DNA of 64,000 nucleotides from Siphonodentalium dalli (lineage: Eukaryota; Mollusca; Scaphopoda; Gadilida; Siphonodentaliidae), in NCBI GenBank assembly GCA_032622095.1, contig CP136063.1, positions 77,103,980 through 77,167,979 on the forward strand, written 5' to 3'. Shown one piece after another: positions 13,131 through 54,642 of this stretch (the first letter of the stretch is position 1; every line of letters starts with the position of its first letter). The notes beneath the pieces were generated by a model. It was not told the origin of the DNA. It did not search any database and was given only the letters and a program-made list of their open reading frames with translations. Made by a program: the position numbers and the translations under genes.

Positions 13131-13724
13131 TCAGTGAGTGCCCTTTCATATATTTGGCGAAGTAACTTAACATGTATTTGGGTTCAACAGGTTTTGAAGA
13201 ACTGCGGTCCGATTTTACTCCCAATTATATATCTTTATTTCCTCCATTCGCGGAGAGTTATGAATAATATAAATTGACAAAATTAATTTATATAATATAT
13301 GTACAAGCACTAAGATAACTTTCAGCTTCCCAGTGAAAAGAAAATAGTAAATGCTTGCCATGTCATCACCATGCATCATCTACAGGACATAGGCATTGCA
13401 AAAATCCCTAAAAGCACGAAACGATACTAAGGTAACTTTCAGCTTGACAGTGAAAAGAAAATATGTAAATGCCTGCCATCACCAACATTTGCAGGACACG
13501 TGTATGCTTTGTGGAAATACTTAAAAGTATACTTAAATACTTAATCAGCTTTACGTGTACAAAAGATCATCAAATTGTGAAACGCTCTTTATTGCCAACT
13601 GCTATATGGGAAACGAAAGCGTGGACGCTCTTTATGAGAAAGATCATAGAAATTTGTTCTGCCATGGCAAACATTCAAAATGTGTTAAATGCCGATATAT
13701 GTTCAATGTAAATTGATGAACCAT

Positions 13725-13850
13725 TGCTGTATAAACAATTCCCAATATATTCTTGTTATGTATGGCACTGAGGTTTTGTGTCTGTTTTTGTTTTATCAGG
13801 ACAGAAGACGTCAATACCAGAAGGAAGCCCCACGAATAAACCTATGGTCC
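13725..13850. repeat. Direct repeat, member 1
   Basis: About 120 bases (GTTATGTATGGCACTGAGGT … GACAGAAGACGTCAATACC) recur at 14829-14952 with few changes, 1.1 kb away in the same orientation. Confidence 0.7.
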
Positions 13851-14828
13851 ATGCATAGAAAGAGAATATGTAATTACGGGCCCGTACATGCATGTATATG
13901 CAATACCGGGGTCAAAACATGAAAATGGTTTGCAATCAACGTCATCAGTAACTCATTATGTTAGGATAATTCAACAAGATCATCCACAATAATATGAGAA
14001 TAAGCAAAAACATATTTTACTTACAAACTCTCTTTAACATTAGACAGTATTGTTAACAGAACCATAAACGTTATTTATCGTAGTTTAGTTTTCGGAATTT
14101 TCATTATTTTCGGGTATGGAAAATTGTGGTTTATGCATTACGTTGACTCACATGTCATCTATAATGAATGCTTACGTTCGATCCAGCTCATATTGTTGTT
14201 AATGGGTGGAAAAGACATGCATTGCGGTACAAACATAACGTTTATTAATATATTAAAAAATGAAACTCATGAGAATGTATAGTTTTCGAAGATATTTGGC
14301 ATTGTGTATGTTTTGTTTTTCTCGTTTATGAGCGCAGACGACGGATTTGTATAAAGAATTGAAACAAAAATACGGAACGATAATGACAAAATATTCGACG
14401 GCATGTACTATATATGAATAAAGATCGCTGTATGGTTTTTGAAAGGGTGTCAGTATATATATAATTTATTTATATATGTATGTATATATGCTTTCACTCT
14501 CTTATTGTGCATATATGTTTTGTTATGATTAAGTAAAACATATTATTTAAATATACACGTATCTATAAATACGACACACTGTTTTATGTGTACTAGATAC
14601 GAGAATGATGCATAACCGAGCAACATATTCTGAACAAAAATCCGGGAATATTTTTTTAATCTCAGAAATTCTTAAGATTTTTTTTGTGCGACAATAGTTT
14701 AAAGTCAATTGTACCATCTTAATTCGAGGAACATGTATCTGTGTGTTCTATAAAGTATCCATTACATTTACTCAGGCACCTATCTGGTCGAGATCTATAA
14801 CATGTGGCATGTAAGTTCCGAAACGGAA

Positions 14829-14952
14829 AACTGTGTAAACAATTCCCATTATAGTTTTGTTATGTATGGTGATGAGGTTTTGTGTCTTTTTTTTGTCAGG
14901 ACAGAAGACGCCAATACCAGAGTGAAGCCCCATGAATAAATATATGGTCCTT
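14829..14952. repeat. Direct repeat, member 2
   Basis: Partner of 13725-13850, same orientation, with a shorter T-run. Confidence 0.7.
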
Positions 14953-15175
14953 ACATTTAATAATTTAATCGTTAAAGTTCTACCATTTCGTACACACTAT
15001 CTATTGCCCAACTGAATGACCCCCCATCCGATTTGACACCACCTTATTCCAAATTTCCTGAGTTAATTTTCAGCTTACCAAGCAAAAGAAAAATGAAACA
15101 AAAAATGCTTGCAATCGCCATCATTTTCGTTACACATGCATGCGTCGCTAAAATCCACAAAAGTATCCGTCAGCG

Positions 15176-15677
15176 TTAAAGGTACGGTTGGCCTTGGCGG
15201 TGGGTATCCTGTGAAAATATTTCCACCCGTCAAAAACCGCCACAAACAGGAGGAACAACAAAATATAGACAGACTTTGTCCGTATACAAATAAGAAATAT
15301 CGCATAAACAGTATGTTATTGTCATATATTTGACCATTGTTATGTAAACAAAAGCATAAAAAGTAACTTTTCTGGTGTTTGTTTATATTATGATGGTAAA
15401 CATAAAGAGCGTTCTTTGTTGGTGAATTCCTGATATGGAACGAATAAAGAGCGTTTATGTCATTTGTGTGTGATTAGCCAGCAGAATCGTGCTGTCTTCT
15501 GTAAGACAATCAGGCTCTTGCTTAGGTGAAATATAGTAAATCTTTATGATAACATGCTGTTTACGCGATGGTCATGGTATATATGAACGAAACTGTATGC
15601 GTTTTAATGTTTTTCTGTTTACGGTGATTGGAACAAATATGAATATTTTCGACAACTAAGGCCGCACGTGCCTTTAA
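15176..15677. mobile_element. TTAA-flanked ~0.5-kb miniature element (family Q), copy 1
   Basis: TTAA at 15176-15179 and 15674-15677 bounds a 494-base body whose ends, AGGTACGGTTGGCCTT and the complement of AAGGCCGCACGTGCCT, are imperfect inverted repeats. It is nearly identical to 25278-25807. It carries a pair of AAAGAGCGTT motifs exactly 42 bases apart (15404 and 15446). It lies in candidate otp intron 1. Confidence 0.8.
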
Positions 15678-15709
15678 GTCGAAAACGAATAGATATGTCC
15701 ATAATTGAG

Positions 15710-15764
15710 AACGCTCTTTATTATCCATCACTTTTGGGCGACGGAAACAGACACGCTCTTTATA
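15710..15764. repeat. Paired AACGCTCTTTAT motif outside family Q
   Basis: AACGCTCTTTATTATCCATC starts at 15710 and the second motif, CACGCTCTTTAT, at 15752: 42 bases start to start. It lies just right of the family Q element at 15677, which carries its own pair. Confidence 0.6.
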
Positions 15765-15799
15765 AGAGATGATCGTTGGATTTTTTGCAAGGCTGACAG

Positions 15800-17756
15800 A
15801 TATTCAAATGTTTTTTTTTACTTCCTTAATTGAAAGTCGATATCTGGCCACCAAAGGCTCCTTTTTGTGGAACCACGGATCCGATCTAATTGTGTTCGTG
15901 TATATAGAGAAATGAACAGGTGATGGTTTTATCGTGTTAAATCGGACAGGGCATTTTAGCTCCGCATACGACTGAAATTTGGACATTTTCTTCACATTTT
16001 GAGCCAAAAATAAATTAAATTCGTGGAATTTTTTTTTTTTAAGTAACGAGATGCTATATATGCTTTATATTGTAGGCCTCCGTGCGACATCCATATCCTG
16101 TTTACGTTATGTTTGCTCATAGATAGTACAAATTGATAAGTATATGGTGTAAAACGATTACGGTTTGTTTATCACTCGCTGTGATTCTAGGTAAAGCGCA
16201 TTATCGTTTCATTATAAATTAACAACATGCTAAAGATCCATATCATTTTCTATAGAAATAGAAAGCTAGTGCTTTGTCACATGGTGATATTCCGCGGTGA
16301 CCAAAAACAGGTGAGAAAAAAAGTTAGTACTGATAAACTGACTTTATATAACACGGAAAGACTTACCTAACTGAAAGTGAGATAAATTTATCAGCTATGT
16401 TAAGATTTCCGCACAAAATTGAAATAAATATTGTTTATTGTTACCATATCAGTACACAACTAATATGGAACGCGTTTATTGTTCCATCGCAATGTATCCA
16501 GTGTGTGCTATGTGATATTCTAAAGTCTGAACGTCGATATTCGCTCCCCATGGTTAGTACATTTAGCTTCAAGAAATTAATGCAAAGTGAAATTATATAC
16601 TTCGGAAACTGAGCCAATTTATTCGGAATATTGTTGGATTCATCGCATATAAAATACGAAATATATAAATAGTAGTTTGGGACACGATGTAATGGCACGA
16701 GTAGTTGCTTTATTGTTATATGATGCTTTAATTGTTATTGAATTATCGCATGTTAGCAGTAATGAGATTTCATATGGAACTTAAAATTGTTATGTATATA
16801 ATATGTGTGTTAAATTGTCAATCTGTGCTTTGCATATACGTTGTGATTGTTCCATCATAATTGATGGTTTAGCAATAAAGCATTTAGTAAATATTGATAA
16901 ACGTACATGTCTATGTTTTGGTTTAAACACATTTCATTTCTGATCCTAAACATACAAAACTTAGATCAAGCAATACAATATACATAAATGAAATGATTGA
17001 AAACTGAAAATAAACAAACCCGAGCGTTTATATTACAATTGCTCCTCGTGTCTATTTTTGAAATAAAATATACGACAAAATATATATTTCGAGAACGGTA
17101 GACTATATGTCGGAAATGGCAGAGTCGACAGAAAGATAAATACATGTACCATGAAGGAAATATAATCCATGGTAAATTTACGTATTCCAAACTCTGAGTC
17201 AACGACAATCCAAAGAATCCAGAAAGTCACGAAGCACTGAATAAAGACAATCACAACCGTGTGATGAAATAACATATTAAGTACGGAACATAAATACTGA
17301 AAGAGTCGGCGAGTCTCATTACGTATATACTATAATACTGATTAGGCCGCTCCCTAAAGAAAATACTTATCTCCGGCGAGTCATCAGTCAAAATTAGGAA
17401 CCTGGCGAAATTCTTACCAACCGTCAAAACAAACAGTCAGCTCAAATCAAGAAATAATTTCTACAACTAACGACTTGTCCGAGCCGTAATTATATAGATA
17501 ACCTTTCCAATAATTTGTATTTACCACCGCGCGGAACCATAGCAGTTGAGTAATCGGTATACGTATCGACGACCGGGGTGATTTTATTAACCCGGTCTGG
17601 TATTATACGGCAAAATTGACTAAATTAATTAAATTCACTTCTAATAAATTTGATATAAGGCAACCTATCATCCGCGGATAGTTAATATATCAATGATGAC
17701 AATATATTCATCGCACGCTAATAGAAATAGACACGTGGATTGAACCTTAAAGAATT
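15800..17756. other. Intronic stretch next to candidate otp exon 1, nothing recognised
   Basis: Low repeat content compared with the rest of the window. Conserved intronic enhancers would be plausible here but nothing in the sequence alone identifies one. Confidence 0.4.
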
Positions 17757-17762
17757 ACTTAC

Positions 17763-17855
17763 CGAAGTCGTAGCTGTGAAGTTTTCTTAAATTGTCTTCT
17801 TCCAAACTTGAACACCAAAATTAGTCTGTCGCGAAAAAATGTTTTTTGATATTTA
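17763..17855 (-). other. otp: Candidate otp exon 1 (non-coding 5' UTR)
   Basis: On the minus strand a TATA box at 17885-17877 predicts initiation near 17855. The following ~90 bases contain no ATG and end in CGACTTCG followed by a consensus donor GTAAGT (17762-17757). This fits a non-coding first exon splicing to the acceptor at 9511, with an intron of about 8.25 kb. What is seen: TATA, CCAAT, no ATG, strong donor, same strand as otp. What is inferred: the exact start site and the join to exon 2. It could instead begin a separate minus-strand transcript. Confidence 0.5.
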
Positions 17856-17876
17856 GGTGTAATTCTTTGGAATTGG

Positions 17877-17885
17877 TTATTTATA
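17877..17885 (-). promoter_or_regulatory. TATA box of candidate otp promoter
   Basis: The minus strand reads TATAAATAA, about 30 bases before the predicted start and about 120 bases before the GTAAGT donor. The upstream flank (17886-18000) is visibly richer in CpG than its surroundings. Confidence 0.5.
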
Positions 17886-17928
17886 CTAGCGGGAGGCGGC
17901 GACAGCGATGCAGAGGCGGTGTGTCCTG

Positions 17929-17933
17929 ATTGG
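17929..17933 (-). promoter_or_regulatory. CCAAT box of candidate otp promoter
   Basis: The minus strand reads CGGCCAATCAGG, about 45 bases upstream of the TATA box, a classical CCAAT position for an NF-Y-type site. Five bases alone are weak; the support is the spacing to the TATA box and donor. Confidence 0.45.
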
Positions 17934-18145
17934 CCGATGTCTCCTCGAGGCGCAGCCTGCATTGCCATTGTATTCTCCGCTGTCGCATGACAGGCATAGA
18001 ATACGGTGACAGTTCGCAGTTATCGTTGTCCCAACAAAAGGCTGATTTATCGAAGAACATCAGCAGCGCTATCCAGCAAAACTCCGCATACACATCACCC
18101 ATGAGTTATAATAAGGTTTAATTTGTTCTATTCATGTTTCATATG

Positions 18146-18320
18146 CTGGTGTGATGATTAGTGGGGTATTGTTCCCAGTGCCAGCATGCAGTACCCACGA
18201 CCAGAGCGTGGGATCATCACCCAACATTATGATGTGCTTGCATTACTAATTATCGCCCAATCGCGTTTGGCAGAGAGAAATATATATAATCAAAACTTTG
18301 ATGACATCAAAGAAACTTAA
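18146..18320. repeat. Dispersed repeat, member 1
   Basis: TGTGATGATTAGTGGGGTAT … ATCACCCAACATTATGATGT … GAGAGAAATATATATAA matches 20095-20275 in the same orientation. It lies about 200 bases upstream of the candidate otp promoter. Confidence 0.65.
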
Positions 18321-18582
18321 TAATCCATGGTAATTTTTTTTTTATAAATGTTTTGTATAACATCACTATAGACACCTCCAACTGTTTTGATTGGAGATTG
18401 ATCAAGTATAGACCATTGCATTTATTTATTTATTTATTTAAAGCCACTGGGAGGTTTTAAACATCAAATTAGATTTAGTAATACTCGATTCTGTCACATC
18501 ACGGTCATTTTTTTTAATAAAAAACAGATCGATAAATATTAGTGAAGTATATTTATACGGAATTGATCAGGCAATTCTTTAA

Positions 18583-18672
18583 GGATTGGCCATTTATAAA
18601 TGGACAATCCGTACCTAAATTTTCATTAATTAATGGTCAATCCGACCACGCGTGGTCGATTGTCCATTTAGA
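18583..18672. repeat. Cluster of short hairpins
   Basis: GGATTGGCCATTTATAAATG-GACAATCC is one foldback; CCGACCACGCGTGGTCGATTG is a second. Elements of GGTCAATCC and its complement occur four times in 90 bases. Confidence 0.6.
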
Positions 18673-18714
18673 AAGAACCATTAACGCTAATCATTTAATT
18701 TAATTTGTTTTAAC

Positions 18715-18818
18715 TAAATAACGGAGATATTTGAAGAAGTGTTTTTGACGAAATAACGGAGATATTTGAAGAATTGTTTTTGACGAAATAACGGAAATAT
18801 TTGAAGAAGTGTTTTAAT
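18715..18818. repeat. 35-bp tandem repeat, three units
   Basis: AAATAACGGAGATATTTGAA-GAAGTGTTTTTGACG is repeated three times with one or two changes per unit. Confidence 0.85.
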
Positions 18819-19019
18819 GAAAATGTAGGTATACGGCGCATTAGGTGGAATTGATATACACCGGAAAGACCAATTCAAGCCCTGTAATCTGGAAATGTTC
18901 TTTGTCATGAATATATACAAACTGGAAGACAAATTTCAGTCCCATCGCTAACATGGTCTGATCACTGCCATCGCATATGCCTTATACAAAATGTAAGAAA
19001 CTCTTACTTGTTTTCATTC

Positions 19020-19240
19020 AAGACTTTTGTCAGTTACAATTAATTTTGATTTGATACGACCAAATTTCAAAGCATGTGGACAGTTCAGTTTCTCAGATAT
19101 TGCAGCCGACAAAACTCAAATAAAATTATAAGATTTCGCAACAGTGTTGAGACCAGCGTATATAGAGGGGACTCTGCTTTGCAGTATGGAATATATATGG
19201 GCAATGCATTCCTGATATGGTTAACACAAAGAGCACGTGT
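19020..19240. repeat. Dispersed repeat with GTCAGTTACAATTAATT
   Basis: ACTTTTGTCAGTTACAATTA, CAGTTTCTCAGATA and GCAGCCGACAAAACTC recur at 51777-51870. Related GTTACAATTCATT segments occur at 54380 and 61265. Confidence 0.5.
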
Positions 19241-19560
19241 CGCATTTATGATGTAAAATTGAAAACGACTGACAATTCTCGATGATTTCGGTGAATAGTT
19301 TTCAGATTATATATATATATGTAAGTCTGAATCCTGTATAACAGCATTTCGTGTTTTTATCGTCCTATATAATGGACACATTTCACACCATGAACTCCCA
19401 CTGATAAGAATTACGAATACGGAACTACGTCACTAGAATTTGTGTTATTTCTGTCATTTATCGTATTGCCATGTCCGTATATTTTCGATTATACGGCTTC
19501 GAAGAGACTTGGGTACGCGAGCTGTTTATGCAATCTTCGAGCCAACCAATGCCGCCTGTT

Positions 19561-19650
19561 TTCGAGAAAATCCGCACATTATCTGCTTATAATATAACTT
19601 GTTTTAGGTAGATATCTGCTTAGAATCGCCTTATTTGGAGTCAATAAAAC
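19561..19650. repeat. Family N fragment
   Basis: ATCCGCACATTATCTGCTTA and TTAGGTAGATATCTGCTTAG match the complement of the inner family N arm. Confidence 0.5.
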
Positions 19651-20094
19651 TAAGTACAAAATAATCAAGACAAACAGAACCATATCACAAACAACAAGGA
19701 CAAATAAGAAGGCAAAGAAAAAGAAACCAACAAAATAAGTATGTCTAGATAATTTTCATCAACTTCCATCTGTCATGTCAAATATATCACCCTTCCATCA
19801 CCCCTCCTAAATAGCAATCGTGGATTGAAGGAAAGGGCCTCCCCAAAAGCATAATAAACAACAACAAGAACCATATCATCTTAATGTGAGTAGCAAGCAC
19901 TTTGAACGGCAATATTTTCAAAGCGGACTCGTATAATCGTCAATTCTGTGAACAGTTTTTGGACCGTCCGAAAAAATTACGACTATACTATTAGCTTTTC
20001 GTAATTGTTATCATTAGTAGTTCATTATGCGAAATGTGTCTCATGTCTCTTCTACCAAATTAAGTATACCTAAATATTGAGGTTCGAAATCCGT

Positions 20095-20275
20095 GGTGTG
20101 ATGAATAGCGGGATATTGTTCCCAATGAGAATGCACTAATCACTCACACAGCTTGGGGTAATCACCCAACATAGTCATGTGCTTGCATCACTGATTAGTA
20201 TCTATTACCGTTCGACCGTGTTTGATGGGAGAAATATGTATATAACTCACAACCTTGTGACACCACAGACATTCT
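20095..20275. repeat. Dispersed repeat, member 2
   Basis: Partner of 18146-18320; it directly abuts the left TTAA of the family E element at 20280. Confidence 0.65.
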
Positions 20276-20279
20276 AAAA

Positions 20280-21510
20280 TTAAAGCCACATGGTGGTTTG
20301 CGCTCCAAAATACACATAATATTATTCGCTTTTGAATTTTTTTCTCAGCATCGAAATAGGTCGATACATATCTAAACTACCTTTGTACGAGCATTGTGTG
20401 ACCCAAAAAGACGCATTGAAGTAATACAAAATACAACTGTGAACACGTTGTTTGGGTCCCAAACACAAAACAGCCATTTGCGTGACATGGAACAGAAAAG
20501 AGCGTTCCATGGTAGTTTATTCCAGATATGATAGCAATAAAGAGCGTTTGTCTGACTTCTGGCTAAATTTTGAAAACGGTTGAAAAATGGCTGTGACCTT
20601 GGCAAGACTATATATATACAGTGTTTTTCAGAATATATGAAGCCGCTATATCACTAGTTCGTTTATTTTCGACCTATCGTATACATCGCTCCAAATTACA
20701 TAGAAAACCAACTGGAGGTTCGAATGAACCATGTCCGTTTAAATTATGTTGTCTGAAATCAGATGATAATCTTTATATAAATTGCATAGCCAATGACAGA
20801 ACACGATGCCAGTAACCCCGAACACAATAACAAAAACCTCTATATCTGTCAGATATCAATTAAGGTACTATTGCTATATACATGTACAACTATATTATAT
20901 ACACTGGCACATGTGCATCCATGCTACAAACAAATGTGCGCAAACGATAATTGAGAACGCTCTTTATTATTTACCGTTTTTGGTAAATTCATGCTCTTTA
21001 TCAGGGACGATCATTTGCATATTTGCCGGCCTTACGAATATTCAGATGTTTTAAACGGACATGGCTCATTCGAGGTTCCAAATTTTGTCTACGAACTTTG
21101 GAATGAGGTATAAGATAGGTTGACAGTGACAAATACACAACATGCGCTCTGAAAAATACTTGCCGTGACCACATCCACTTTCTAGCAGCTTTCAATGTCG
21201 CACATACGGGAACGCTCTTTATTTATACCATATTAGGAACAGGCTGGCTTGAAACGCTCTTTATTTATACCATATCAGGAACACCTCATTTATGTTCCAT
21301 GCAAAATTAATGGTTACTTTTGTTTGGGACCAAACATTGTGTTTAAAGGTGTAATTGTTATGACTTCAATGCGTCTTTCTGGGACATATATTGCACGTAG
21401 AAAGGTAGTTCAAGTATTTATCGACCTATTTCGATACTGGGAAAACCATCAATATAAAATATTATATATATCAGGTGTATTTTGGAGCGCAAACCAGCAA
21501 GTGGCTTTAA
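20280..21510. mobile_element. TTAA-flanked 1.2-kb long inverted-repeat element (family E)
   Basis: TTAAAGCCACATGGTGG at the left and the complement of CAAGTGGCTTTAA at the right begin imperfect inverted repeats over roughly 250 bases, sharing GGTTTGCGCTCCAAAATACA, a GATAGGTCGATA segment and AAGACGCATTGAAGT. TTAA occurs at both ends (20280-20283 and 21507-21510). Each arm carries a pair of AACGCTCTTTAT-type motifs 42 bases apart (20497/20539 and 21211/21253); a third, looser pair lies in the middle. No transposase is present. Confidence 0.75.
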
Positions 21511-22410
21511 AGCTTACTCATTTGAAAGTTGACATATCAATGTAATATCAAATCGGATGGGGCATCTTTTGAGCTTAGTGACGGATTGAAGTCTGAAATT
21601 GTGTTCGAGTTTGTCACATACCGCTTCATGTAGATAAAAATAGGTCGCTAAGTACGTTGCATCTCTTTATAATATGCGGAATTCATTCGCCAAAGAAGGT
21701 TTTATTGAAGTTATAAAATGTAGAAAAAAATAGCACGGTACCACAACGAGCGTTCCTAATTAGACTGTTCCTGATATGGTTAAAAAATATATATATTTGT
21801 CACAGTTCTGTGCGAAAATTTTAAATATTTTAATTGTGCTATGACTGGCTATATAAAGTTCGAATTTCACATTGAAAATCTGTATTTCGTGTGTTTATCG
21901 AGATATAGTATCGACCCTTAAGCATTACATAGACATACATTGTAATTTGGCGACTCGAGCGAGCAATGACATTTAATATAGAAAATAATTCGGCGCTCGT
22001 TCGATGACGTTTCCTCTTTACTAACAATGCTAAAGCGTGCCCCAGAGCACCTGCTGCGTTGTCGGGTTTATGGATTAGGCGACGTCACAGGAAGTCGGTT
22101 CTTTATAATTGCCTAGATTAGTTATATCCGTCGTCTACGTGGGGGGGGGGGGGGGGTCATATGTATCGTCATATATTGTTCAACTGACCCGATTATGTTG
22201 AGGTATCATGTATCAGTATAGTGTTGATGTCGGATATTCAGAACAACCAGTGAAATCTTAAAGCGAAACGAACCGATTTACCAAATGTGTTCCATTCTAA
22301 ATTCCAATTGCTTGTTCTAAAGGTACCCCAAGGCACTCGCAGTTGATAAATGTGCAAATATATGAAAGTCTGTTAAGACATTGGCTGCGAACACACATAC
22401 CACATAGTAG
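21511..22410. other. No gene; homopolymer G run
   Basis: G run at 22141-22156. Sequence otherwise unremarkable. Confidence 0.45.
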
Positions 22411-22414
22411 CGAT

Positions 22415-24300: not shown

Positions 24301-24409
24301 TCAATATAGTAAAGCCAAATTACAATATTTAAGTAAGGATTCGATTGTCGGGCGGTGGGGCACGCGGGGGATGGCTTCTGAATAACAAATAATTCAATGA
24401 TAGTCTGAT

Positions 24410-24457
24410 AAAGAGCGTCCGTTCGCTTTCCAAAAGTGTTAGATGATAAAGAGCGTT
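24410..24457. repeat. Paired AAAGAGCG motif, 38-base spacing
   Basis: AAAGAGCGTCCGTTCG (24410) and AAAGAGCGTTCTC (24448). The inter-motif sequence is not conserved with the other sites. Confidence 0.5.
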
Positions 24458-24494
24458 CTCAGGTGACCCTTTCATGGCGGGAGTTGTTTTTGCG

Positions 24495-25277: not shown

Positions 25278-25807
25278 TTAAAGGTACGGTTGGCCTTGGC
25301 GGTGGGTATCCTGTGAAAATATTTCCACCCGTCAAAAACCGCCACAAACAGAAAGAACAACAAAATGTAGACCCACTTTGTCCGTATATAAATAAGAAAT
25401 ATCGCATAAACAGTATGTTATTGTCATATCTTTGACCATTGTTATGTAAACAAAAGAATAAAAAGTTACTTTCTGGTGTTTGTTTATATTATGATGGTAA
25501 ACATAAAGATATATTATGATGGTAAACATAAAGAGCGTTCTTTGTTGGTGAATTCCTGATATGGAACGAATAAAGAGCGTTTATGCCATTTGTGTGTGAT
25601 TAGCCAGCAGCTAGCATTGTGCTGTCTCATGTAACACAATCAGGCTCTTGCTTGGGTAAAATATAGTAAATCTTTATGATAACATGCTGTTTACGCGATG
25701 GTCATGGTATATATGAACGAAACTGTATGCGTTTTAATGTATTTCTGTTTACGGTGATTGGAACAAATATGAATATTTTCGACAACTAAGGCCTCACATG
25801 CCTTTAA
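25278..25807. mobile_element. TTAA-flanked miniature element (family Q), copy 2, in tandem repeat F
   Basis: It is the same element as the 15176 copy, 522 bases between TTAA duplications, the difference being mostly a 27-base tandem duplication near 25490-25530. The flanking tandem-repeat units at 28440-28443 and 29243-29246 show the same surrounding sequence with one TTAA and no element, which documents the insertion. Confidence 0.88.
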
Positions 25808-25876
25808 ATAAAAGTGTTTTGTATGGATGATTTAGAGAATACGTTACAATGTTATTCTGGTCGGATATTGCATACA

Positions 25877-26966: not shown

Positions 26967-27028
26967 GCTTGATCATCTGTGGATAGTTAACGCTCTATCC
27001 TTTGGTTTTGTTCAGAATTGTGAACATA

Positions 27029-33311: not shown

Positions 33312-33317
33312 TAGCTA

Positions 33318-37560: not shown

Positions 37561-37561
37561 T

Positions 37562-37805: not shown

Positions 37806-38162
37806 TGTTGGGTGATCGACATAAATCCACAAGCTATTGTAAGTATAAAGTAGGTATTGCAAAAACAAAATCACCACTATATATCTTTGTACCTATATAT
37901 GCAGTCTTTATGTGATTGGAATAATCATTTAAATGTATTGCTGAAGATCGCTAATCAACATACTCAGTTGCTCCATCGAATCTTATAGGATAGTTTTACT
38001 CCAACGAAATGTGATACAGGAGTGGACGCACCCAGAACAAGATCTAAAGAAGAGCGTAAACTAATTTCAAAACGTGTCGCATAAATGGCTTGGTCACGAA
38101 CAAACGTATATAGCGCAAACGTATACAGTATATACATATATAGCAATATGACACAAAGTCAT

Positions 38163-38630
38163 ATATGTGACCCGCCATATCAAACCCAGTCGTAAGTCGG
38201 GATTTTTTTTACCCTGTGCCAATGCATTCTCTTATATATGCGAGTCGACCATAGGTCGCCTCGCATATATAAGAGAATGCATTGGCCTAACAATTTTTTA
38301 CAATTTTAATAATTTGTTCTTGTATTCTTTAACAATTTTATAATTTCACCCATACAGAGCCCCAGACAAACATGAGCAGACGACACTCTTCTATATGCTT
38401 CTATATATATGTGGGGCTCCCTGCAGGGTAATGGATGTTTTTTTTATTTTATGTCCTCAAAATTGTAAGAAACATTTATTTTTAAAAAATGATAAAAAAT
38501 TGTTAGGCCAATGCATTCTCTTATATATGCGAGGCGACCTATGGTCGCCTCGCATATATAAGAGAATGCATTGGCACAGGGTAAACAAAATCCCGAGTTA
38601 CGATTGGATTTGATATGGCGGGTCACATAT
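38163..38630. mobile_element. Miniature element, shell C copy 2
   Basis: It has the same GTGACCCGCCATATCAAA terminal repeats as the 9940 copy, with palindromes at 38218-38286 and 38507-38575. The right palindrome is perfectly symmetric here, whereas all other well-preserved copies keep one arm mismatch. Confidence 0.8.
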
Positions 38631-44999: not shown

Positions 45000-45895
45000 C
45001 AAAAATTCCAATTTTCACCATTTTCTTACATATTTTCTTCATTTGTATCTAAATTAACGACTTTCCCTTCATTAAACGCATGGATATTTTGGATATATTA
45101 TTATATGGTCACATTTGGCAGTCAGGGAACTCGACTGAGCGTTTATGGTTGGCAGATTTGTTTATTAAAAAATTTCCAATTTTCACCATTTTTGTTTACA
45201 TATTCCAATATTTTGACTCAAAAATTACGACTTCTGGTTCATGGGGATTTTGGGTATGTTATTATATGAGTATAGTCACACTCAAAAAGACCAAAAGCAA
45301 AACAAATTCACGTTTCCGTTTGACTGGACTAATAAGGAACTGCAAACTTGACACAAAAAAGACACAAATAGGACCCTATTTCAAAGATATGTGGAAAATT
45401 TCCCCCAAAGCGAATTTTGGATATACTGTTCCCAATATTCTGCCCAACAAAATAATACAAACAGCTTGTTACCAATTTAATATAGGTTCACCTTAAAATC
45501 TGAGTCTCAACCAGAAACAGTTTTCACCAATGTTGTTTACATATTCCTGACTTTTCACCCAAAAATGACGATTTTCCCACTCTGGGATTCACGGGTATTT
45601 TGGTTATGTCATCATATGGATATAGTCACATTCAAACACACCAAACGACATTGTATAGTAATTTGTTCACGGTTGGGTTTTTCTTTCCATCAGATTGACT
45701 AGACTAATAAGGAACAGCAAAATTTACACAAAAAGCCATAAATAGGACCCCATTTCAACGAGCTGTGGAAAATTTTCTCCAAAGCGGATTTTGGATATAT
45801 TGTTCCCCAGATTCTGCCCGACAAAATGACACCAAAAACAGCTTGTAAACAATTTGTTCTAGGTTCACCTCAAAATCGAGTCTCAACGACCAGAC
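45000..45895. repeat. ~390-bp tandem units at right end of family H copy 2
   Basis: Segments CCAATTTTCACCATTTT, GGTTATGTCATCATATGGATATAGTCACA-like, GACTAATAAGGAAC, CAAAGCGAATTTTGGATATA and AACAGCTTGTTACCAATTTA-like recur at 45170-45500 and 45500-45895, with a partial third unit at 45000-45170. The terminal part of each unit is the element's own right arm, so the arm has been duplicated inward. Confidence 0.7.
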
Positions 45896-47089
45896 TAGTT
45901 ATGTGTATAATATGTCACTGCTTGTGCCCTGTTGGTGTGATGACTTGAATTGCGTATTGTCTCATTGTAATGAGGTCCGCGAGGCTGATATGTGTACTGG
46001 CTAATCTGGTCACCGCTTCGGTTGTGTACTTGTCTTTGGTCCGACAATAATTCGAAGGGAAGTAAAATGCGGCTGTTATGCTATCTGTCGTCTATTCGTT
46101 TGTCACGTGGCAACTCAGTAGAAAACGAACATATCCTCGCGTAAATACGCACATAATCGACATATAAAGTGAAACAGGTACATAATGTGATTATTTGATT
46201 TTGAAATAAGCAGATAATGGAGTCATGTCCGTTAATTCGTTTCATGGCGCGGGCTACAACGAAAACAAATGTTTAAGAGCGTACACCTGAAAGGTCATGA
46301 GTTGGCTTATATGTGTCTTTGTTCGCACATACTACATGCTTTCAATCGCCTCATCATGAGTCGATAATGTGACTAAAACATTCTCATTTTCAGCACATTA
46401 TCGACTCAAAATAAGGCGATTCTCGGCAGATTATCAACCTAAAACAAGTTCGATTGTATGCAGATCATGTGCGGATATTCGGGAGAACAGGCTGAGAAAA
46501 CAACGTACTGCATATGGATGTAAATATTCGCTAAGACACAGTGATGCTGAGGTATATCCTAAGTATGTGTTAATATAGCTTATGTATAGTTGTCATTGAT
46601 TGGCTGCTTTTAGTGATTGCTGGACAACTGAACTATGTCAAACCAATCAGATATGCGTTAGTATATGGCTCTCTCATTATCGGATGTTCAATATGGCGCA
46701 CTTCTTTGGTTAACATCTCTTCCAAGTACAACACCAGTGACTTGACTTGAAACTTGAAACGTATATTTTATTAGCATATACATGTGATACAAAAGTGATC
46801 GGGGCAAAAGTTTTTCAACTTATGAAGCCCCTCTCCCAATACAAACAATTAAGCATACAACTGTTTACAAGATTACAGCTGAACATATTTACATGCAAGC
46901 TTTTATGATTTGGTGGTTCTTGTTGCAGTGCCCCCAGAGCATATTGATACATGGGTTATGGTTGATTTGGTCGCTATAACATTTGGTGTAGTTTGTGTGA
47001 TTCTGTGGTCGTATTAACTAATGTCGGAGTAGGGTTTTGCGCAAATGGTTATATTCATCATATATATGTTAGTCAAGTGATCGTCAGCT

Positions 47090-47520
47090 ACAACACCAGT
47101 GTCGGTTGCTTCTCACAAGACCTTGAATAATAGCATGGTTGTGTTGAAACCCCAATATCCTGAGGTTCCTCAGATCTCAACTCCCACCGAAGTCGAATGT
47201 GAAATATGTGAAGCTAACCAAGGATGTTTACCATCCCATTTGCGGTGCTATAAGTGCCGAAAATATGGCCACGGCAACAGGAATTGTAAAAGTAAAGAAA
47301 TGATATGGCCATGGTGTTGTTCTGCCACAGGCCAGGAACAGATGAACACAAACATTGTACAGAACTCGAAACGCAAAAACTCGATCAAGACATTGTCAGC
47401 TGGACCTGTGATAACGCAGGTAGTAGCAAGTGTGGGCTCTTTCGTTGTTCTCTTATTCCAACCATGTCACTCTATTGTCGATCAGAAGTTAACAGCGTGT
47501 TGTGTTCGATAATGGCCCTG
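47090..47520 (+). pseudogene. Retrotransposon gag-like zinc-knuckle remnant
   Basis: One frame reads VSVASHKTLNNSMVV and, after a divergent stretch, CYKCRKYGHGNRNC, a perfect CX2CX4HX4C zinc knuckle. Shortly after it the likely continuation moves to another frame (…DEHKHCTELET… near 47330-47390), suggesting a frameshift and loss of a second knuckle. The arrangement resembles ORF1/gag proteins of non-LTR (jockey-like) elements with an RNA-binding domain followed by knuckles. No reverse transcriptase follows. It sits inside the long-TIR element 46130-49474, so it is either nested debris or captured sequence. Confidence 0.6.
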
Positions 47521-48195
47521 CATTTATGCGCGTCCATCTTCTCGATCGAACGCGCGATTTGATGGTATCCGCAATTGTCAATTTAAACGTCCCCTGCAAA
47601 TTGGTGATCCGTGCCCAACAATAAAAAAAACTGAGATTAGCTGTATTAAAGATGTAGTGACAATATAAAGTTACGCGCCGCGCTGTTTCCCGCCCCATTA
47701 GGCCAGACCAATTAGTTATTGAGAATCGTCTACATCCCTGCTCTCCCGACGAATACTAGAAACAAATGTATATAGTCAGGTAAGTAGTAGTAAGTAGTAT
47801 CACATCCATCGTTGACATGGTGTGATAATCAATAAACATTGATCTATACATTTGTAATGCTAAATTTCCAAGATTCTGCTATGTGAGAAAAAACAATTAT
47901 ATGTAAACATTACTGCCACAGTGGAATTAACTATAAAAGTCAAATTTGTCAAATAAGATACCGAAGTTTAATGAAAACTGGACGGCGAACTTCGCAAAAA
48001 AAAGGTCAAAGTATTGAACAAATATTCTGAAAATCATATTCAGACTAAATTATTTGAACTTAGTACACGATTCTCTATGTTCTTTGACAAATCACTGTAA
48101 CAGTTTTGATTACATAAATATGGTTTCAACGCGCGAAGTTTCGTTATTGGATAACTATCAATAATGAATATAAGAACAAAGTGTATCTATTACTA

Positions 48196-48325
48196 CAGTA
48201 ATGCCCTAAATAATAGACTCCTTAACCACAGCAGAATTATGGGTAATATTTTCGAAAATATGGCTTGTTGCCATTAATCGAAAAGCTCTCTGTGGTTTAG
48301 GAGTCGATTATTTAGGGAATTACTG
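48196..48325. mobile_element. Family G MITE, internally shortened copy
   Basis: CAGTAATGCCCTAAATAATA and the complement at 48325 bound 130 bases with TA duplications. One arm is complete through GGCTTGTTGCCATTAATCG; the other keeps only the outer ~30 bases. Confidence 0.78.
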
Positions 48326-48378
48326 TACATGTTTTATAATGTTAGCACATTTTTTCCATTCGAGTTTCTTAGGTCCCT

Positions 48379-48615
48379 TTAACTCTTTCTACACTTAATG
48401 GATTATCCCACTCAGTTATACATTGGAATGATCTAGAATTGATTTGGAGGGGTTTTCAAGAAAAAAAATATGCAGAAGACAGTACAGAAGGAGTCCTACT
48501 TATTCGAGTGAAATGTTCAGAAAATAAGTTCAGCAAACGTTTGTTGAATTTTGTATCTGTGCATTTCCTGTGGTATGACTAATCAGCGATGAGTATTTAG
48601 TATAGATATGGTTAA
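48379..48615. mobile_element. TTAA-flanked miniature element (family P), copy 2
   Basis: TTAACTCTTTCTACACTTAA at the left and TTTAGTATAGATATGGTTAA at the right form imperfect inverted repeats with TTAA on both sides. It is inverted relative to the 8030 copy. It lies just inside the right arm of the long-TIR element 46130-49474. Confidence 0.72.
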
Positions 48616-48975
48616 AGAGCCACCATCTTCTACTTACTCTCGTCGTATTAGTTTAGATATGCATTGTCCAGCGCTTCATAAAATAACCCGCACATTATCT
48701 GCTTATGATAAAAGTTCTTTTAGGTATAGATAATTTGCTTAGAATCAACCCATTTTGAGTCGATGATGTGCTGAAAATGAGACAGTTTTAGTCATATTAC
48801 CGACTCGCAATGAGGCGATTGTAAGCAGGTTATTTGCAGACAATGACACAAATAAGCAAAATCACGATTGTTCAGGGTTTCGCTCTTTAAAATGTGTTTT
48901 CACTGTGGCCCGCGCCATAAAAATAAATAACGGCAATGAATCCATTATCTGTTTATTTCAGAATCAAACTAGGGA

Positions 48976-49440
48976 TGGGCCTGTCCCAGATGGGACTGAT
49001 GTATACCCCCGTATTCAACATGTTATTTGAATGTAGTAGCCATTACTGTATATTGGGCACTGAAATTATGTGAACAGGTAACCCTAAATCCCCTAAGCCC
49101 TAACACTAATCTTGAATCTCTTAACCCTTATCCTAACCCTAAATCCTATTGACTGAAAAATGTAGGAATAAAAGCTCGGACAAAATTATGCATTTTGAGA
49201 ACATTTTCTAAATTCGGACAGACCTCATAATCGCAGGTGCACAGGTTCCAATGGTACTAATTATCTGTGCCAAGTTTCAAAAATATTGACCAGGAATAAA
49301 AGCTCGGACAAAATTGTGTCCACGGACGGATGGACGGCCAGACGGACGAACAGATGGACAAGCTGATTCAAGTATACCCCCCCCCCCCATAGCTCGTTGC
49401 GGCGGGTACAATAATCACATTGTGTACATATTTCACATTA
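48976..49440. repeat. Repeat interrupting the family N right arm
   Basis: This holds a degenerate CCCTAA-rich patch (49081-49146), a duplicated AATAAAAGCTCGGACAAAAT segment (49168 and 49295), GGACG-rich simple sequence and a run of about 13 C at 49379. The flanks resemble GGGCCTG…ACCCCC microsatellite-rich repeats common in invertebrates. Confidence 0.5.
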
Positions 49441-49673
49441 TAGGTCGATTATGTGCGTATTTGCGAGAGGATATGTAACCCAAGTGTCTTTAAAATTTCG
49501 TTGAATGTACTAATTTTTATTTTTATTTTACTTTACTCGATCAGAAAATCGGTTCTAGCCGAACATTTTGTGTAATTTGGTACACATCGAACAGGCCATT
49601 GATTTTGCCACAATGTGTGGCAATCATGAACGCTTCAATGTTTAGTAATTGGTAAATATTCCAATAGGTGAAG

Positions 49674-49962
49674 GGGCCTCGGTGGCTCAATCGGTTAGGG
49701 GTAGGACTCCAAGCTATTTCGCCCTCCAGCGCTGGTGCATGTTAAGGGTTCAATCCACGATTCCATGGTGGACTTTGTAACTCGAAATCGCTGACCGGTG
49801 GTTTGCCGCACATGGTTGACGATATTTTCAGCCATTTCAATCACTGTTAGATTAGCCGTAAATGGGCGGATTTCCCCCACCACTAAAACTGGCAATGTCG
49901 TGATATGGCCTTAGTTGCTGAAAGCGAAATTGAAACCCCAATCAACCAATCAAATAGGTGAA
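49674..49962 (+). mobile_element. tRNA-derived SINE
   Basis: The head reads GGCCTCGGTGGCTCAATCGG, like a tRNA 5' end with an A box, and GGTTCAATCC at 49747-49756 is a B box. The internal polymerase III promoter spacing is tRNA-like, but the anticodon region does not fold as a functional tRNA. A body of about 200 bases and a tail of CCCCAATCAACCAATCAA follow. This is the usual form of a tRNA-headed SINE whose tail is shared with a partner LINE. Confidence 0.75.
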
Positions 49963-51285
49963 TGTTGTGACGATCCTATAGATGGTAAGTGTCCAGATTT
50001 TTACAGTTATGTGTCTATTAATCGATGCAAAACCAGAACCCATATTGAAATTGGTTTTGCCTAATCAAACAGATTCAACAGCGTAATTCATTTGATGGCG
50101 AATATTTCTCACCCGATGACAACTCTCATTGTTTAGAAATCATCTCGCGAGAAAATGGGTAATTATCCGGCAGAGGGCGCATGCTTAATGGCCGACTTGT
50201 TTGCCTCGCACGTGCGTAGTCGGCACGAGACAAAGCGATACTTTATACCTTTATGGTGGTCCTCTTATAATAGGGATGGGCGTGCGGCTGTCATGCGATA
50301 TACCGAATCCCTTCCGATCCTCGACAAATGATACCGGGAGATGAAAGACCTCCAGAATATAAGATGATTAAATTAGAAGATTCATCCCATTCTTGCTATG
50401 AAAGATGGAATTGTCTGTCACACCCGCTGCTTGAAACTGCATGTGTCCATATTATGCCATCAAATAATTTCCATTAATATTGGGTAGATATATATGACTT
50501 GTGCACGTCGGTCACGGTTAGTGGAGACCGGGTAACACGCCAAACTCCATACAGTGCCCTCTACGTTAACACTGCGATATAGCACTGCGGACCAATACAT
50601 CGATTTTTACATATATATCGTCGGAACTATATTTAGTCACCTATTATTTTATTTTGACCACCAACAGTTTGCAATGACGGTAATTCTTTCGGTATAGATA
50701 AGAACAATATAGACTGAGCCAGACATAGACAATTTTAATCCTAAAACATAAGAACTAAGAACCAAGGGGCGCGGAAGCATCCAAGGGCAGGGGGGGGGCA
50801 GAGCCTATACAAAAAGGGCACTGTTCCGCAAAAAAGGCATTTTCTCCGCAAACTCGGGAAAATAACCATAAATTAATTGTGGCAAAAATCCCTATTTTAA
50901 AGGTATTTGTCGGTTTTTATGGCCGTTTAGTGATAAAATTGACAACAAATTAATATTCCTTGTGAAATTGGTGGTATTTGGACCAAAAAAGTCACATTTT
51001 GCTATAAAAACACGAGATTAAACACACAAAAAGCATTTTCTGTCTCCAGAAAAAGGGCAAGTCCTGCCCCCGCTCGCCCCCCCCCCCTGGTCAAGGGCGG
51101 GGGGGGTCAGCTGCCCCATCTGCCCCCTCTTCCGGCACCCCTGCTAAGAACACGTAATAACTCCTTACCAAATGTCCTTATGGCAGTGGTAGCGGAGCAA
51201 TGGGAGATAACTCTGCCTGGAGTTTGATAACACGCATCAGTCAGAACGCCATGGCACCAAACAGCAAGACAGAGTTCAGTTCCCT
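49963..51285. other. No gene; G/C homopolymer-rich repeat at 50770-51120
   Basis: G runs (50788, 51100), a C run (51079) and AAAGGGCA-type segments suggest a dispersed element bounded near 50770 and 51135. The rest is featureless. Confidence 0.4.
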
Positions 51286-51289
51286 CCCT

Positions 51290-51772
51290 ACGCTTTGCAA
51301 TCATGTATATTTTCTTAATTAAACGGACATGGCTCATTCGAACCTCCAAATTTTGTCTACGTAATTTGGAGGGACGGATACGATGGTCGAAAAAGACAAG
51401 AAATATTGATATGACGGCTTCATCTGCTTTAAAAACACTTGCGAAAGTCACAGCCATTTTCCAGCAGCTTTCAATTTTTCGCCCGAAGTCAGACAAACGC
51501 TCTTTATTGCCACCACATCAGGAATAGAATAACAGGAACGCACTTTTCTATTCCATGTGGTGCAAATGTCTGTTTTGGGGGGGGGGGCAAAACCCAAACA
51601 CCTTGTTCATAGTTGCATTTTTCATTATTTCAATGCGTCTTTTTGTGTTACATAATTCTCGTAGAAAGGTAGTTAAGATATTTATCGACCTATTTCGATA
51701 CCGTGTAAAATTCAAAAGCTAATTATATTATTTGTATTTTGGAGCGCAAACCGCCATGTGGCTTTAAATCTA
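51290..51772. mobile_element. Family E right-half copy
   Basis: AAACGGACATGGCTCATTCG (from 51322), the CAGCAGCTTTCAAT segment, a paired AACGCTCTTTAT site (51496/51537), AATGCGTCTTTTT, TTATCGACCTATTTCGATAC and GGAGCGCAAACC-GTGGCTTTAA follow in the same order as 21055-21510. The left arm is missing. A run of ten G lies near 51580. Confidence 0.65.
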
Positions 51773-52510
51773 ACATTTTTGTCAGTTACAATTAATTCCT
51801 GCTTGATATTCCTGCTTCGGTTTCTCAGAATAATGCAGAATAAATTGTAGCCGACAAAAGTCTTAAATGAAAAATAGTGGTTTCCTCTCATTCTGCGTAC
51901 GTGGTGGTGGTGTTCAGTCCAGCGCATCAGGGGACTGAACTCTATTCTGTGTACATGGTGGCAGTGTTCAGTCCAGCGTAGCAGAGGACTGAATTCTGCC
52001 TTGCAGTTCGGGTCAGAACGCCATAAGTTTTAAAAACGAAATGCTACTTTATTTGGTTGCAATGCGACCTAAATTTCGTCAAAATATCACACTATTCGAC
52101 CTCACGCAGGTTCGTGGCGTTTTATATGTAGGTGCAAAAACAAAACATTCAGCGGTGTCCTATCTATAAGATATTTGTCACCTTGATGTCGTATAAATTG
52201 AATGAACACAGCTGGAAATTTCTGACTTTGGCCAGATTATATACATGAATATATAAAACCCAGTACCAGTAACCTACGTGACCAATAAAGTATCAAACCC
52301 AAAGAGGTTTATATTTAATTTGTTTAAAACATACACAAACATTTGTCTGACGGGATGAACTAATACATGTGCTGTGGAATCTCACAATGTACGTTAAATA
52401 ATCAGTAATAGATAAAAAGTCATATTTATAACTTAAATTTACAATGAAAATAGATATGGATTGAGAACATCACGTATGCCTCAACCATTTAACATTTTCA
52501 TGATGGGAGC
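51773..52510. other. Dispersed repeat fragments, no gene
   Basis: 51777-51870 matches 19020-19120. A short tandem pair (GTG-TTCAGTCCAGCG at 51911 and 51968, each followed by GGACTGAA) is present. 52030-52510 is featureless. Confidence 0.4.
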
Positions 52511-54366
52511 TTCCTGAAATTTTGCGAAAAACCTGTGCCATTGCATTCTCTTATATATGCGAAAAAAAATTTTATATAAAATGCAAGAAAAAATGATAAA
52601 AAAAATTTAAAGAATGCAAGAAAACATGATAAAATTGGATAAAGAATGTAAGAAAAAAATGGTAAAAAAAATTATAACAATTTTAAAGAATGTAAACAAA
52701 AATAAAAAGTGATAAAATTGTTAAAGAATATCAGAAAACATGATAAAAATTGTTATAGAATGTAAGACAAAATTATTTTTAAAAAACAATTGACAAATTG
52801 TTAAAGAATGTAAGAAAAAATGATAAATAATGTATGAAAAAATGTTCAAGAATGATAAAACATTGTTAACGAATGGAATGTAAGAACGAATGATCAAAAA
52901 TGATAAAAAAAAAATGCTAAATAATGTAAGAACAATTTATAAATGTTTTTTATAAAAACTGTTATAGAAAGTAAGAAATGATCAATATTGTTAAAGAATT
53001 TAAGAAAAAAATATAAAACAAGAGCATAATACGCCCGTTTCTGGAGTAGAGTGGGCCAAGAGTATATCAAATTTGGTTCAGTTCACTCGATTCGATCAAA
53101 AGTTATCATCTGGAAACCGCATATCAGGTAAAATGTAAGTCGAAAAAGGGGCATAACTCAGTCAAAATCATGTGGACGAAACTCATATTCGAACTTGATC
53201 TGTATTTTGGGGTGGTAAACTAATATACCAGATTTGGATCAGTTCACTTGATTCAATCTAAAGTTATCATCCGGAAACCGCAAATCAGGTAAAATCTAAA
53301 TCGAATAAAAGATCGGTAGACCTCATGTCCGCCTCTAAGTGTCGGCTTGATACGACCGTTGTTTGCGCACAACAACCTGTCTTTAGTGCTAGTAAACCTA
53401 CATACCAAATTTAATTTCATTCAGTACACATTTACTAAAGTTATCATCCGGAAACCTCAGATTGGCAAGAATTCTAAATAAAAAAGGGACATAACTCTGG
53501 TGAAAAGTGGCGGGCGGAACCCGAATTCGAACTTGACCTGTGTTTTGCTGGGAGAAAGACACATACCAACTTTGGTTCAGATTAAATAATCCAAACTGGA
53601 GTTATCGGTCGGAAACCAAAAATGTTAACAGACGGTCAAATTCTAAGTCGAAAAAGGGCCGTAACTCATGTAATAATAATTGGACGGAACCCATATTCGA
53701 ACTTAGCCTGTATCTTTAGCTGGGAAATACACATACCAACTTTGGTTCAGATCAAATAATCCAAACTGGAGTTATCGGTCGGAAACCAAAAGTGTTAACA
53801 GACGGTCAAATTCTTAGTCGAAAAAGGGGCATAACTCTGGTGAAAATTGGCGGACGGAACCAGAATTCGAACTTGACCTGTCTTTTCTGCTAGTAAACCC
53901 ACATACCAAATTTATTTTAATTTGGTTCACTCTAACTAAAGTTATCCGGAAACCTCGGACGCACGGACGCACGGACGCACGGACGGACGGACGTGCTGAT
54001 TATAATAGTCCTCCGAACCCGTTGGGTCGGCGGACAAAAAGGGGCATAACTCAGTCAAAATCATGCGGACAACACACATATTCGAACTTGATCTGTATTT
54101 TGGTGTGGTAAACTAACATACCAAATTTGGTTCAGTTCACTCGCTTCAATCTAAAGTTATCATTCGGAAACCAAAATCGGACGGACGGACGACGGACGGA
54201 CAACCCATTTACATAATACGACCGTTTTTTTTTCTCAAACGGGCGTATACAAAATTATAGTAAATGATAAAACAAATTATAAATATTGTTAAAAACAATT
54301 TAAAAACAAAAAATATATATATAAAATGTTAGGCCAATGCATTCTCTTATATATGCGAGGCGACAT
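52511..54366. mobile_element. Large palindrome-module element, linker expanded and invaded
   Basis: Half palindromes lie at 52537-52562 and 54333-54364, in opposite orientation. Between them the linker unit (GTTAAAGAATGTAAGAAAAA-like) is repeated a dozen or more times (52563-53015), then interrupted by a separate repeat element (53020-54251), after which linker units resume. The outer flank CCTGAAATTTTGCGAAAAAC matches the remnant at 6715. Confidence 0.6.
53020..54251. mobile_element. Interspersed repeat with ~170-bp internal tandem units (family M)
   Basis: The ends read AAGAGCATAATACGCCCG and AAACGGGCGTATAC. The body is built from about six or seven imperfect units of roughly 170 bases, each with AAAAAGGGGCATAACTC, TTCGAACTTGACCTGT, ACATACCAACTTTGGTTCAG and GTTATC-GGAAACC segments. 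A GGAC-rich simple repeat lies at 53956-53990. A short opposite-strand relative lies at 57128-57405. No protein is encoded. Confidence 0.6.
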
Positions 54367-54375
54367 GAGACTTGT

Positions 54376-54455
54376 GTAGGTTACAATTCATTCTGCATTA
54401 TTCTAAGAAACTGAACTGTCCATATTCATTTGAAGATTGAGAATTGTAACTGACA
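54376..54455. repeat. Small inverted-end repeat, copy 1
   Basis: GTTACAATTCATTCTGCATT at the left and GAATTGTAACTGA at the right bracket GAACTGTCCATATTCATTTG. It recurs at 61263-61355. Confidence 0.6.
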
Positions 54456-54590
54456 GAACACTTCAATAAAAACTGTTAGATTTAATTAAGTAAATACACA
54501 TTCCGGCAGCGGGCAGACATAGCGTAACAAGGGGACAGAACTCTGTTAGCTTGGCTTTCGCGGACAAGTGTTGATTCCAGTCAGAACAAT

Positions 54591-54642
54591 AAAGAGCGTC
54601 ATTAGTAGTTTTTATCCCAATATGGAATAAATAAATAGCGTC
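54591..54642. repeat. Paired AAAGAGCG motif, isolated
   Basis: AAAGAGCGTC (54591) and AAATAGCGTC (54633) are 42 bases apart with CCCAATATGGAATAAAT between. Nearby sequence (54376-54560) resembles other repeat fragments, but not family E arms. Confidence 0.55.

Follow-up and report, generated by a model that had tools for sequence, protein, structure and literature searches.

A same-direction 12-bp word in many unlike repeats of Siphonodentalium dalli, a putative shared protein-binding site

Introduction

Direct repeats of a site of about 12 bp form the Su(Hw) array of the Drosophila gypsy element, where they are bound by a host zinc-finger protein, and the TnpA motifs of En/Spm are repeated 12-bp subterminal sequences present in both orientations. 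Here we describe a 12-bp word, AACGCTCTTTAT, which forms direct pairs in a 64,000-bp stretch of the genome of the scaphopod Siphonodentalium dalli (contig C3:77103980-77167979; hereafter the window) and recurs across the whole genome. Like the En/Spm motifs it is a transposon-borne 12-mer present in several copies, but in element A, one of its carriers, the copies are central and point the same way; the Su(Hw) array belongs to one element family, whereas many unlike families carry the word here; and the CENP-B box differs from AACGCTCTTTAT in sequence. CENP-B-box-like motifs are alike in being short motifs kept in otherwise unlike tandem repeats and possibly bound by a transposase-derived protein, and differ in that the present motif is dispersed, oriented, often paired about 42 bp apart and of another sequence (PMC3694981; PMC5139131).

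Kolobok transposons are the other relevant system, with a signature that combines a TTAA target and 5'-RR...YY-3' ends (PMC6004289; PMC9587614). The KolobokP lineage, said to be especially rich in bivalves, has a repeat that measures about 450 or 660 bp and carries terminal inverted repeats of 11-18 bp; two identical copies of it flank a region encoding a transposase and a His-Me nuclease, and the account leaves room for a homing site inside the repeat (PMC9587614).

Results and discussion

The word is extremely abundant and almost always paired in one direction

The 2.23-Gb genome (nine contigs) holds 124,735 exact copies of AACGCTCTTTAT, 62,306 on one strand and 62,429 on the other, against 467 exact matches to the reversed word that served as control; when one mismatch is allowed, the whole-genome figures are 236,152 and 16,817. 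A comparison 12-mer taken from element A outside its motif pair has 10,701 copies in the whole genome (control, 611), so that exact AACGCTCTTTAT is more than 11 times as frequent as this A-derived word. Direct pairs of the motif's last 11 bases at spacings of 24-54 bp number 33,316 genome-wide, against 1 in the control, and 23,579 of them are spaced at 42 bp (control, 0), which extends to the genome the preferred 42-bp spacing that an earlier note on the window had reported. Over the same range, facing pairs occur at 36 places, spread over all nine contigs, and back-to-back pairs at 26. For exact pairs the same-direction rule is nearly absolute; it is a stronger clue than the 42-bp spacing, had not been stressed in the earlier note, and argues against a simple palindromic site.

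We propose, with a probability of roughly 0.4, that AACGCTCTTTAT is a putative oriented binding site of a sequence-specific DNA-binding protein, exploited by many unrelated repeats. The abundance of the word is extreme, its pairs run in the same direction, its contexts are many and otherwise unlike, and a sample of A copies has no common motif variants. The candidate binder would be a host factor or a domesticated transposase, and repeat families would carry its site singly or as same-direction pairs, with site-keeping copies being amplified and site-losing copies less so. Binding is predicted to be oriented and paired, with sites about 42 bp apart in elements A and C, and could aid amplification via transcription, open chromatin or the recruitment of replication or transposition. 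A more specific version, which we regard as doubtful, posits one predicted protein reading the word at about 125,000 places; its unlike contexts, some 20 or more, range from miniature inverted-repeat transposable elements (MITEs) and satellites to a U2 unit. The word would then act as a common address, in the manner of a dispersed CENP-B box or pairing-centre motif, and in the most successful family two sites about four helical turns apart would work cooperatively.

Sites common to mobile elements are usually credited to a common transposase or ancestor, and an oriented word found in many unlike repeats, hundreds of times above its control, suggests that these repeats exploit one factor in common, either of the host or acting in trans. 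The 53-bp two-site module would be a simple bait for finding such a factor; should it be a host protein, repeats with their 125,000 sites would account for a major share of where it binds. Text searches of the open-access literature for AACGCTCTTTAT and its 11-base form in both orientations, and for the CCATATCAGGAA half that accompanies some pairs, showed no repeat-related paper, by title, among those listed, and two patterns sought in viral contigs gave 0 matches.

Two minor forms were seen elsewhere in the genome. One, rare and palindromic, has motifs that face each other across TTTGCCAACTACTAAGGTAGTTGGCAAA and occurs on several contigs (for example at C1:231932628-231932675), and a short array at C1:16653074-16653394 carries the B-type motif with a 31-bp period.

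Ten pairs in the window reduce to four contexts

The window is eukaryotic in look, with a single open reading frame (ORF) of at least 150 aa under the bacterial code and many repeats, which we take to be molluscan; a tRNA search of it found none and an Rfam search no match. At up to two mismatches AACGCTCTTTAT is matched 27 times in the window (shuffles: mean 6.49, largest 12), and ten direct pairs arise at spacings of 20-60 bp, whereas 200 windows simulated with a Markov model averaged 0.015 such pairs and never had more than 1. There are no inverted pairs in the window at up to two mismatches and two at up to three. Under the settings for direct pairs, nine of the ten pairs that the earlier note had listed were recovered; the tenth, 51496/51537, is indeed a direct pair at spacing 41, but its second copy has three mismatches (AACGCACTTTTC). 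The list is otherwise correct apart from its minus-strand coordinates, which are shifted by 2, AAAGAGCGTT being without the two bases that start ATAAAGAGCGTT, and it did not include an extra, poorer pair at 14026/14067 (spacing 41, two mismatches in each copy). The features are as follows.

15180..15673, minus strand: element A copy 1, 494 bp, ends AGG...CCT; TTAA at 15176-15179 and 15674-15677
15402..15455, minus strand: motif pair of A copy 1; both motifs exact, 42 bp apart, with CCATATCAGGAA between them
25282..25803, minus strand: element A copy 2, 522 bp including a 25-bp tandem duplication; TTAA on both sides
25528..25581, minus strand: motif pair of A copy 2; both motifs exact, 42 bp apart
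20284..20738, minus strand: element C copy 1, 455 bp; TTAA at 20280 and 20739
20495..20548, minus strand: motif pair of C copy 1; spacing 42, two mismatches in one copy
21055..21506, plus strand: element C copy 2, 452 bp; TTAA at 21051 and 21507
21211..21264, plus strand: motif pair of C copy 2; both motifs exact, 42 bp apart, with CCATATTAGGAA between them
51323..51763, plus strand: element C copy 3, 441 bp; TTAA at 51319 and 51764
51496..51548, plus strand: motif pair of C copy 3; spacing 41, three mismatches in the second copy
13581..13635, plus strand: B-type motif pair; spacing 43
15710..15763, plus strand: B-type motif pair; spacing 42, begins 33 bp past the TTAA of A copy 1
20956..21001, plus strand: B-type motif pair; spacing 34, adjoins C copy 2
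24408..24457, minus strand: B-type motif pair; spacing 38
54589..54642, minus strand: lone A-type motif pair; spacing 42, TTCCATATTGGGA between, no A or C profile match
14026..14078, plus strand: possible decayed pair; spacing 41, two mismatches in each copy
16328..16487, plus strand: decayed C relative; CCATATCAG retained, both motifs broken
19200..19369, minus strand: decayed C relative; CCATATCAGGAA retained, first motif broken, second not seen
21732..21957, minus strand: decayed C relative; CCATATCAGGAA retained, first motif lost, second with two mismatches

As had been anticipated, independent contexts are fewer than pairs: the ten pairs fall into four contexts, namely element A (two copies), element C (three), type B (four) and one lone pair. 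Not all of them turn out to be one ancestral element, the outcome that would have undone the earlier note's idea: B differs in its flanks from A and C, and neither the A nor the C profile matches at the pair at 54589. A and C themselves have TTAA sites and spacer type in common and little else alike. The pairs at 20497 and 21211, previously taken for two arms of one element, belong instead to two separate, oppositely oriented C elements (20284-20738 and 21055-21506), each with its own TTAA sites, and a B-type pair is located between them. The CCATATCAGGAA-like half that was said often to lie between the motifs is present in the A- and C-type pairs and in the pair at 54589, and is missing from the four B-type pairs (13581, 15710, 20956 and 24408).

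Elements A and C resemble Kolobok transposons

Element A has a body of about 494 bp common to 16 aligned copies on contig 1, with TTAA at the left end in 16/16 (one off by a base) and at the right end in 15/16. Its ends match imperfectly over about 18 bp and then run into degenerate inverted arms, which align with a score of 87 (highest score in shuffles, 53); the motif pair lies centrally, at positions 219 and 261 of the 494-bp consensus. All three window copies of element C (441-455 bp) also lie between TTAA sites. The RR...YY rule fits the AG...CT ends of A, and C has AC at one end and CT at the other. Judged from these termini, A and C appear Kolobok-like by target site, and A also by its ends. 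With Kolobok transposons and T2-type MITEs they have in common the TTAA duplication, AG-type ends in the case of A, and non-autonomous elements, and differ in the paired internal 12-bp motif, of which the excerpted description makes no mention (PMC6004289). Compared with the solo long terminal direct repeats of KolobokP (PMC9587614), C at 441-455 bp and A at about 494 bp may resemble the 450-bp class in length, and may also resemble these repeats in having short imperfect terminal inverted repeats. A composite of the KolobokP kind was considered for two A-A direct pairs (loci L106 and L107) and rejected, both being tandem duplications that run past the ends of A; in these two pairs, ORF lists judged by eye contained no long transposase ORF. 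Type B is a looser group, in which 13 copies compared gave local matches of about 30-257 bp at roughly 62-94% identity, with one pair 92% identical over 450 bp.

These elements raise an alternative to a shared binding site exploited by unrelated repeats, namely that the word is a cis-site for transposition, with a Kolobok-like transposase or accessory protein binding pairs of sites that many non-autonomous elements carry internally, much as TnpA binds its motifs in En/Spm. Both of the best-defined carriers are indeed TTAA elements, bounded by AG...CT and AC...CT, and source lineages of A retain the motif; the pair, however, lies in the middle of A, away from the ends, the ends of A and C are by eye weakly alike, and no autonomous partner element, which in Kolobok would encode a DDE transposase with a THAP domain, turned up, although no transposase search was made. 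The motif is also found in tandem repeats of about 620-670 bp and of 1,575 bp, in the U2 unit and near a reverse-transcriptase-like ORF, which argues against a site needed by one transposase alone. We consider a transposition site unlikely.

Two observations concern the placement of these elements. Among the matches listed, A copies look strongly clustered at about 36.0-37.0 Mb of C1 relative to its first 30 Mb, and a C element abuts an A element at one common TTAA (locus L055, about 516-1060, the same place as L014).

The carriers are otherwise unlike

Contexts were sampled from the first 100 AACGCTCTTTAT matches listed, which extend to C1:3.12 Mb and were taken as contiguous; scaled from the reversed control, about 0.65 matches would be expected by chance in this stretch. 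Flanks were available for 98, the two left out (C1:661436 and 662932) being copies of the 1,575-bp tandem repeat. With the motif masked, the 98 flanks formed 29 similarity clusters, or 23 after seven B-type clusters had been merged by eye, a merge that alignments back for six of the seven (not for cluster 26, L080). Element A and its variants account for 24 of the 98 listed, the tandem family of about 620-670 bp for 16, the 1,575-bp tandem family for 8 and element C for 6, and 14 contexts were single before merging; some small clusters resemble segmental duplications and not mobile families. At loci L005/L047 the motif lies about 500 bp past the reverse-transcriptase-like ORF, an assignment made by eye and without a family search. 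A second motif copy (up to two mismatches, either strand) lies within 100 bp in 9 of the 23 contexts, compared with a shuffle mean of 0.56, the nearest being 24, 28, 29 (inverted), 33, 37, 41, 41, 42 and 42 bp away.

Three motif contexts at about 2.208-2.239 Mb of C1 recur at 2.819-2.845 Mb in reversed order and orientation, which suggests an inverted segmental duplication.

The 42-bp spacing belongs mostly to one spacer lineage

Among the first 100 pairs listed, 64 are spaced at 42 bp, 10 at 41 and 8 at 31. From these pairs we picked 27 spacer types by eye (one typed with an extra base), and single linkage at a shuffle P of at most 0.005 over 351 comparisons joined them into two lineages, A-type and B-type; clustering at 60% identity was discarded, as it merged everything. 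The A-type lineage, which is ACCATATCAGG-like, has 9 of its 17 types at 42 bp and ranges overall from 34 to 49 bp, and the B-type lineage has 2 of 10 at 42 bp and ranges from 28 to 46 bp; other spacings seen are 24, 28, 32, 33 and 37 bp. Collapsing the copies weakens the 42-bp peak, which is chiefly a feature of the A-type module, found in several otherwise different flanks, and no general rule. Nor is there support for the suggestion that four helical turns place both sites on one face of the DNA, given the broad range of spacings (36-39 and 44-47 bp occur) and the weak 10.5-bp phasing over the 27 types, which are not independent (resultant 0.36, p ~0.03). The CCATATCAGG half was rejected as a universal partner of the motif; its downstream enrichment over the 23 contexts is weak (Wilcoxon p 0.07 and 0.03), which places it with the A-type lineage.

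The U2 snRNA tandem unit contains an A-type module

The U2 small nuclear RNA (snRNA) unit, 920 bp long and tandemly arranged at C5:203.27-203.30 Mb (203269408-203304049; loci L094-L105), holds an A-type module in which AACGCGCTTTAT (one mismatch) is followed by ATTACCATATAAG and by an exact motif, the two motifs being 32 bp apart. This module is present in 18/18 units read and lies on the strand opposite U2, with its exact motif 149 bp past the U2 3' end. Its exact 26-mer occurs at 31 places in the genome, of which 26 are in the U2 array, one lies about 204 bp from a diverged U2 match (C5:203897868) and four are elsewhere; the A, B and C profiles give no match in the 920-bp unit. The module may be a kept site or an old insertion.

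Placement in this unit bears on a further explanation, in which the word would be a control element of small non-coding RNAs, promoter-like or 3'-end-like, and repeats would carry it for transcription. Such a role would explain the strict orientation, and it is in keeping with the same-direction pairing, the module in the U2 unit and the 26-mer beside a diverged U2 match. Yet the motif is absent from the 500 bp upstream of four U2 genes in one array and so does not lie close upstream of them, no exact 26-mer lies near six U2 matches on C6, C8 and C9, no other RNA gene was found in the U2 unit (E up to 1), the window is likewise without an Rfam match, and an old insertion into the unit explains the module equally well. 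We judge this explanation improbable. The more specific candidate of a snRNA proximal sequence element, which has a fixed place upstream of such genes, was rejected for U2, the module being past the 3' end and on the other strand instead of in the 500 bp upstream of those four genes.

Constraint on the word is uneven among families

Copies of A were found by anchors outside the pair (9,806 genome-wide, 100 listed), and the 100 listed rows yielded 55 distinct indel-free haplotypes; the repeat counts (94 copies) are approximate, having been tallied manually. Of the variants common to at least three haplotypes, none falls on the 24 motif sites and 8 fall within the 30 spacer sites (Fisher p 0.006). 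Rare changes number 2/660 in motif 1 (p 0.0007) and 11/660 in motif 2 (p 0.62), against 35/1650 in the spacer, the second motif thus changing as in dead copies. This pattern is as expected if dead copies decay freely while source copies keep the motif. The tandem family of about 620-670 bp (L044/L045/L067), which is unrelated to A, was compared over 17 half-units by means of a downstream anchor, at loci that had been chosen as motif-bearing and with units that are not independent; motif changes amount to 2/204 against 93/1096 in the flanks (Fisher p 1.4e-5), and it is in this one tandem family that the CENP-B-like trait of a motif kept against changing flanks is seen. Independent gain of the motif in two half-units of this family is not claimed, as a 21-bp gap explains the difference, and the 1,575-bp tandem family is too uniform to show a contrast between motif and flank.

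Several results weigh against the putative binding site. In A, three of the five indel rows dropped from the 100 have a changed motif, 4 first and 13 second motifs are changed by eye over the 100 listed rows, and the bases between the anchor and motif 1 are equally quiet (edge, 1/385), so that the low rate in motif 1 may be partly local. In C, for which 80 of 100 rows were used (59 of these indel-free), the motif is intact in 28/80 copies, and its per-site change of 6.8% exceeds the 7/236 (3.0%) of four flank columns without subfamily variants, which suggests that C decays like neutral DNA with CpG hardest hit. Variants at 15% or more are found at none of 12 motif sites and at 4/8 flank sites of C, but this cut was set after seeing the data and a CpG C-to-T change reaches 8/59. 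The three decayed C relatives retain CCATATCAGG better than the motif, in a search whose profile included CCATATCAGG. For type B, flank anchors recovered just 4 copies, one of them with an intact motif, and no constraint is apparent. The U2 units, being near-identical tandem copies, count as one event, and the U2 matches on C6, C8 and C9 that lack the 26-mer tell in the same direction. Taken by family, the alignments support constraint in two (A and one tandem family), are equivocal in C and do not support it in B.

Decay in B and C is also what hitch-hiking would produce, that is, a few old and huge repeat lineages having carried the word while their flanks diverged past recognition, with an exact search finding the word alone. 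Ascertainment by the exact word and the joining of 27 pair types into two spacer lineages are in line with such a history, but in the A sample and in one tandem family the word changes less than the bases around it, and many contexts have no other similarity visible to clustering. Moreover, the 124,735 exact copies outnumber the single-mismatch copies above control (about 95,000), a ratio that fits about 6% decay per site and not flanks that have become unrecognisable. We think it unlikely that hitch-hiking accounts for the word, and favour the putative binding site.

Other repeats in the window

The window holds, at 53064-54205, degenerate tandem repeats with units of about 161-177 bp, in which the motif has no match. 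A palindromic repeat, GCCAATGCATTCTCTTATATATGCGAG..., inside which AACGCTCTTTAT has no match at up to two mismatches, is present in at least 15 window copies (for example 9941-10408, 38162-38630 and 55023-55493), often as inverted pairs about 290 bp apart.

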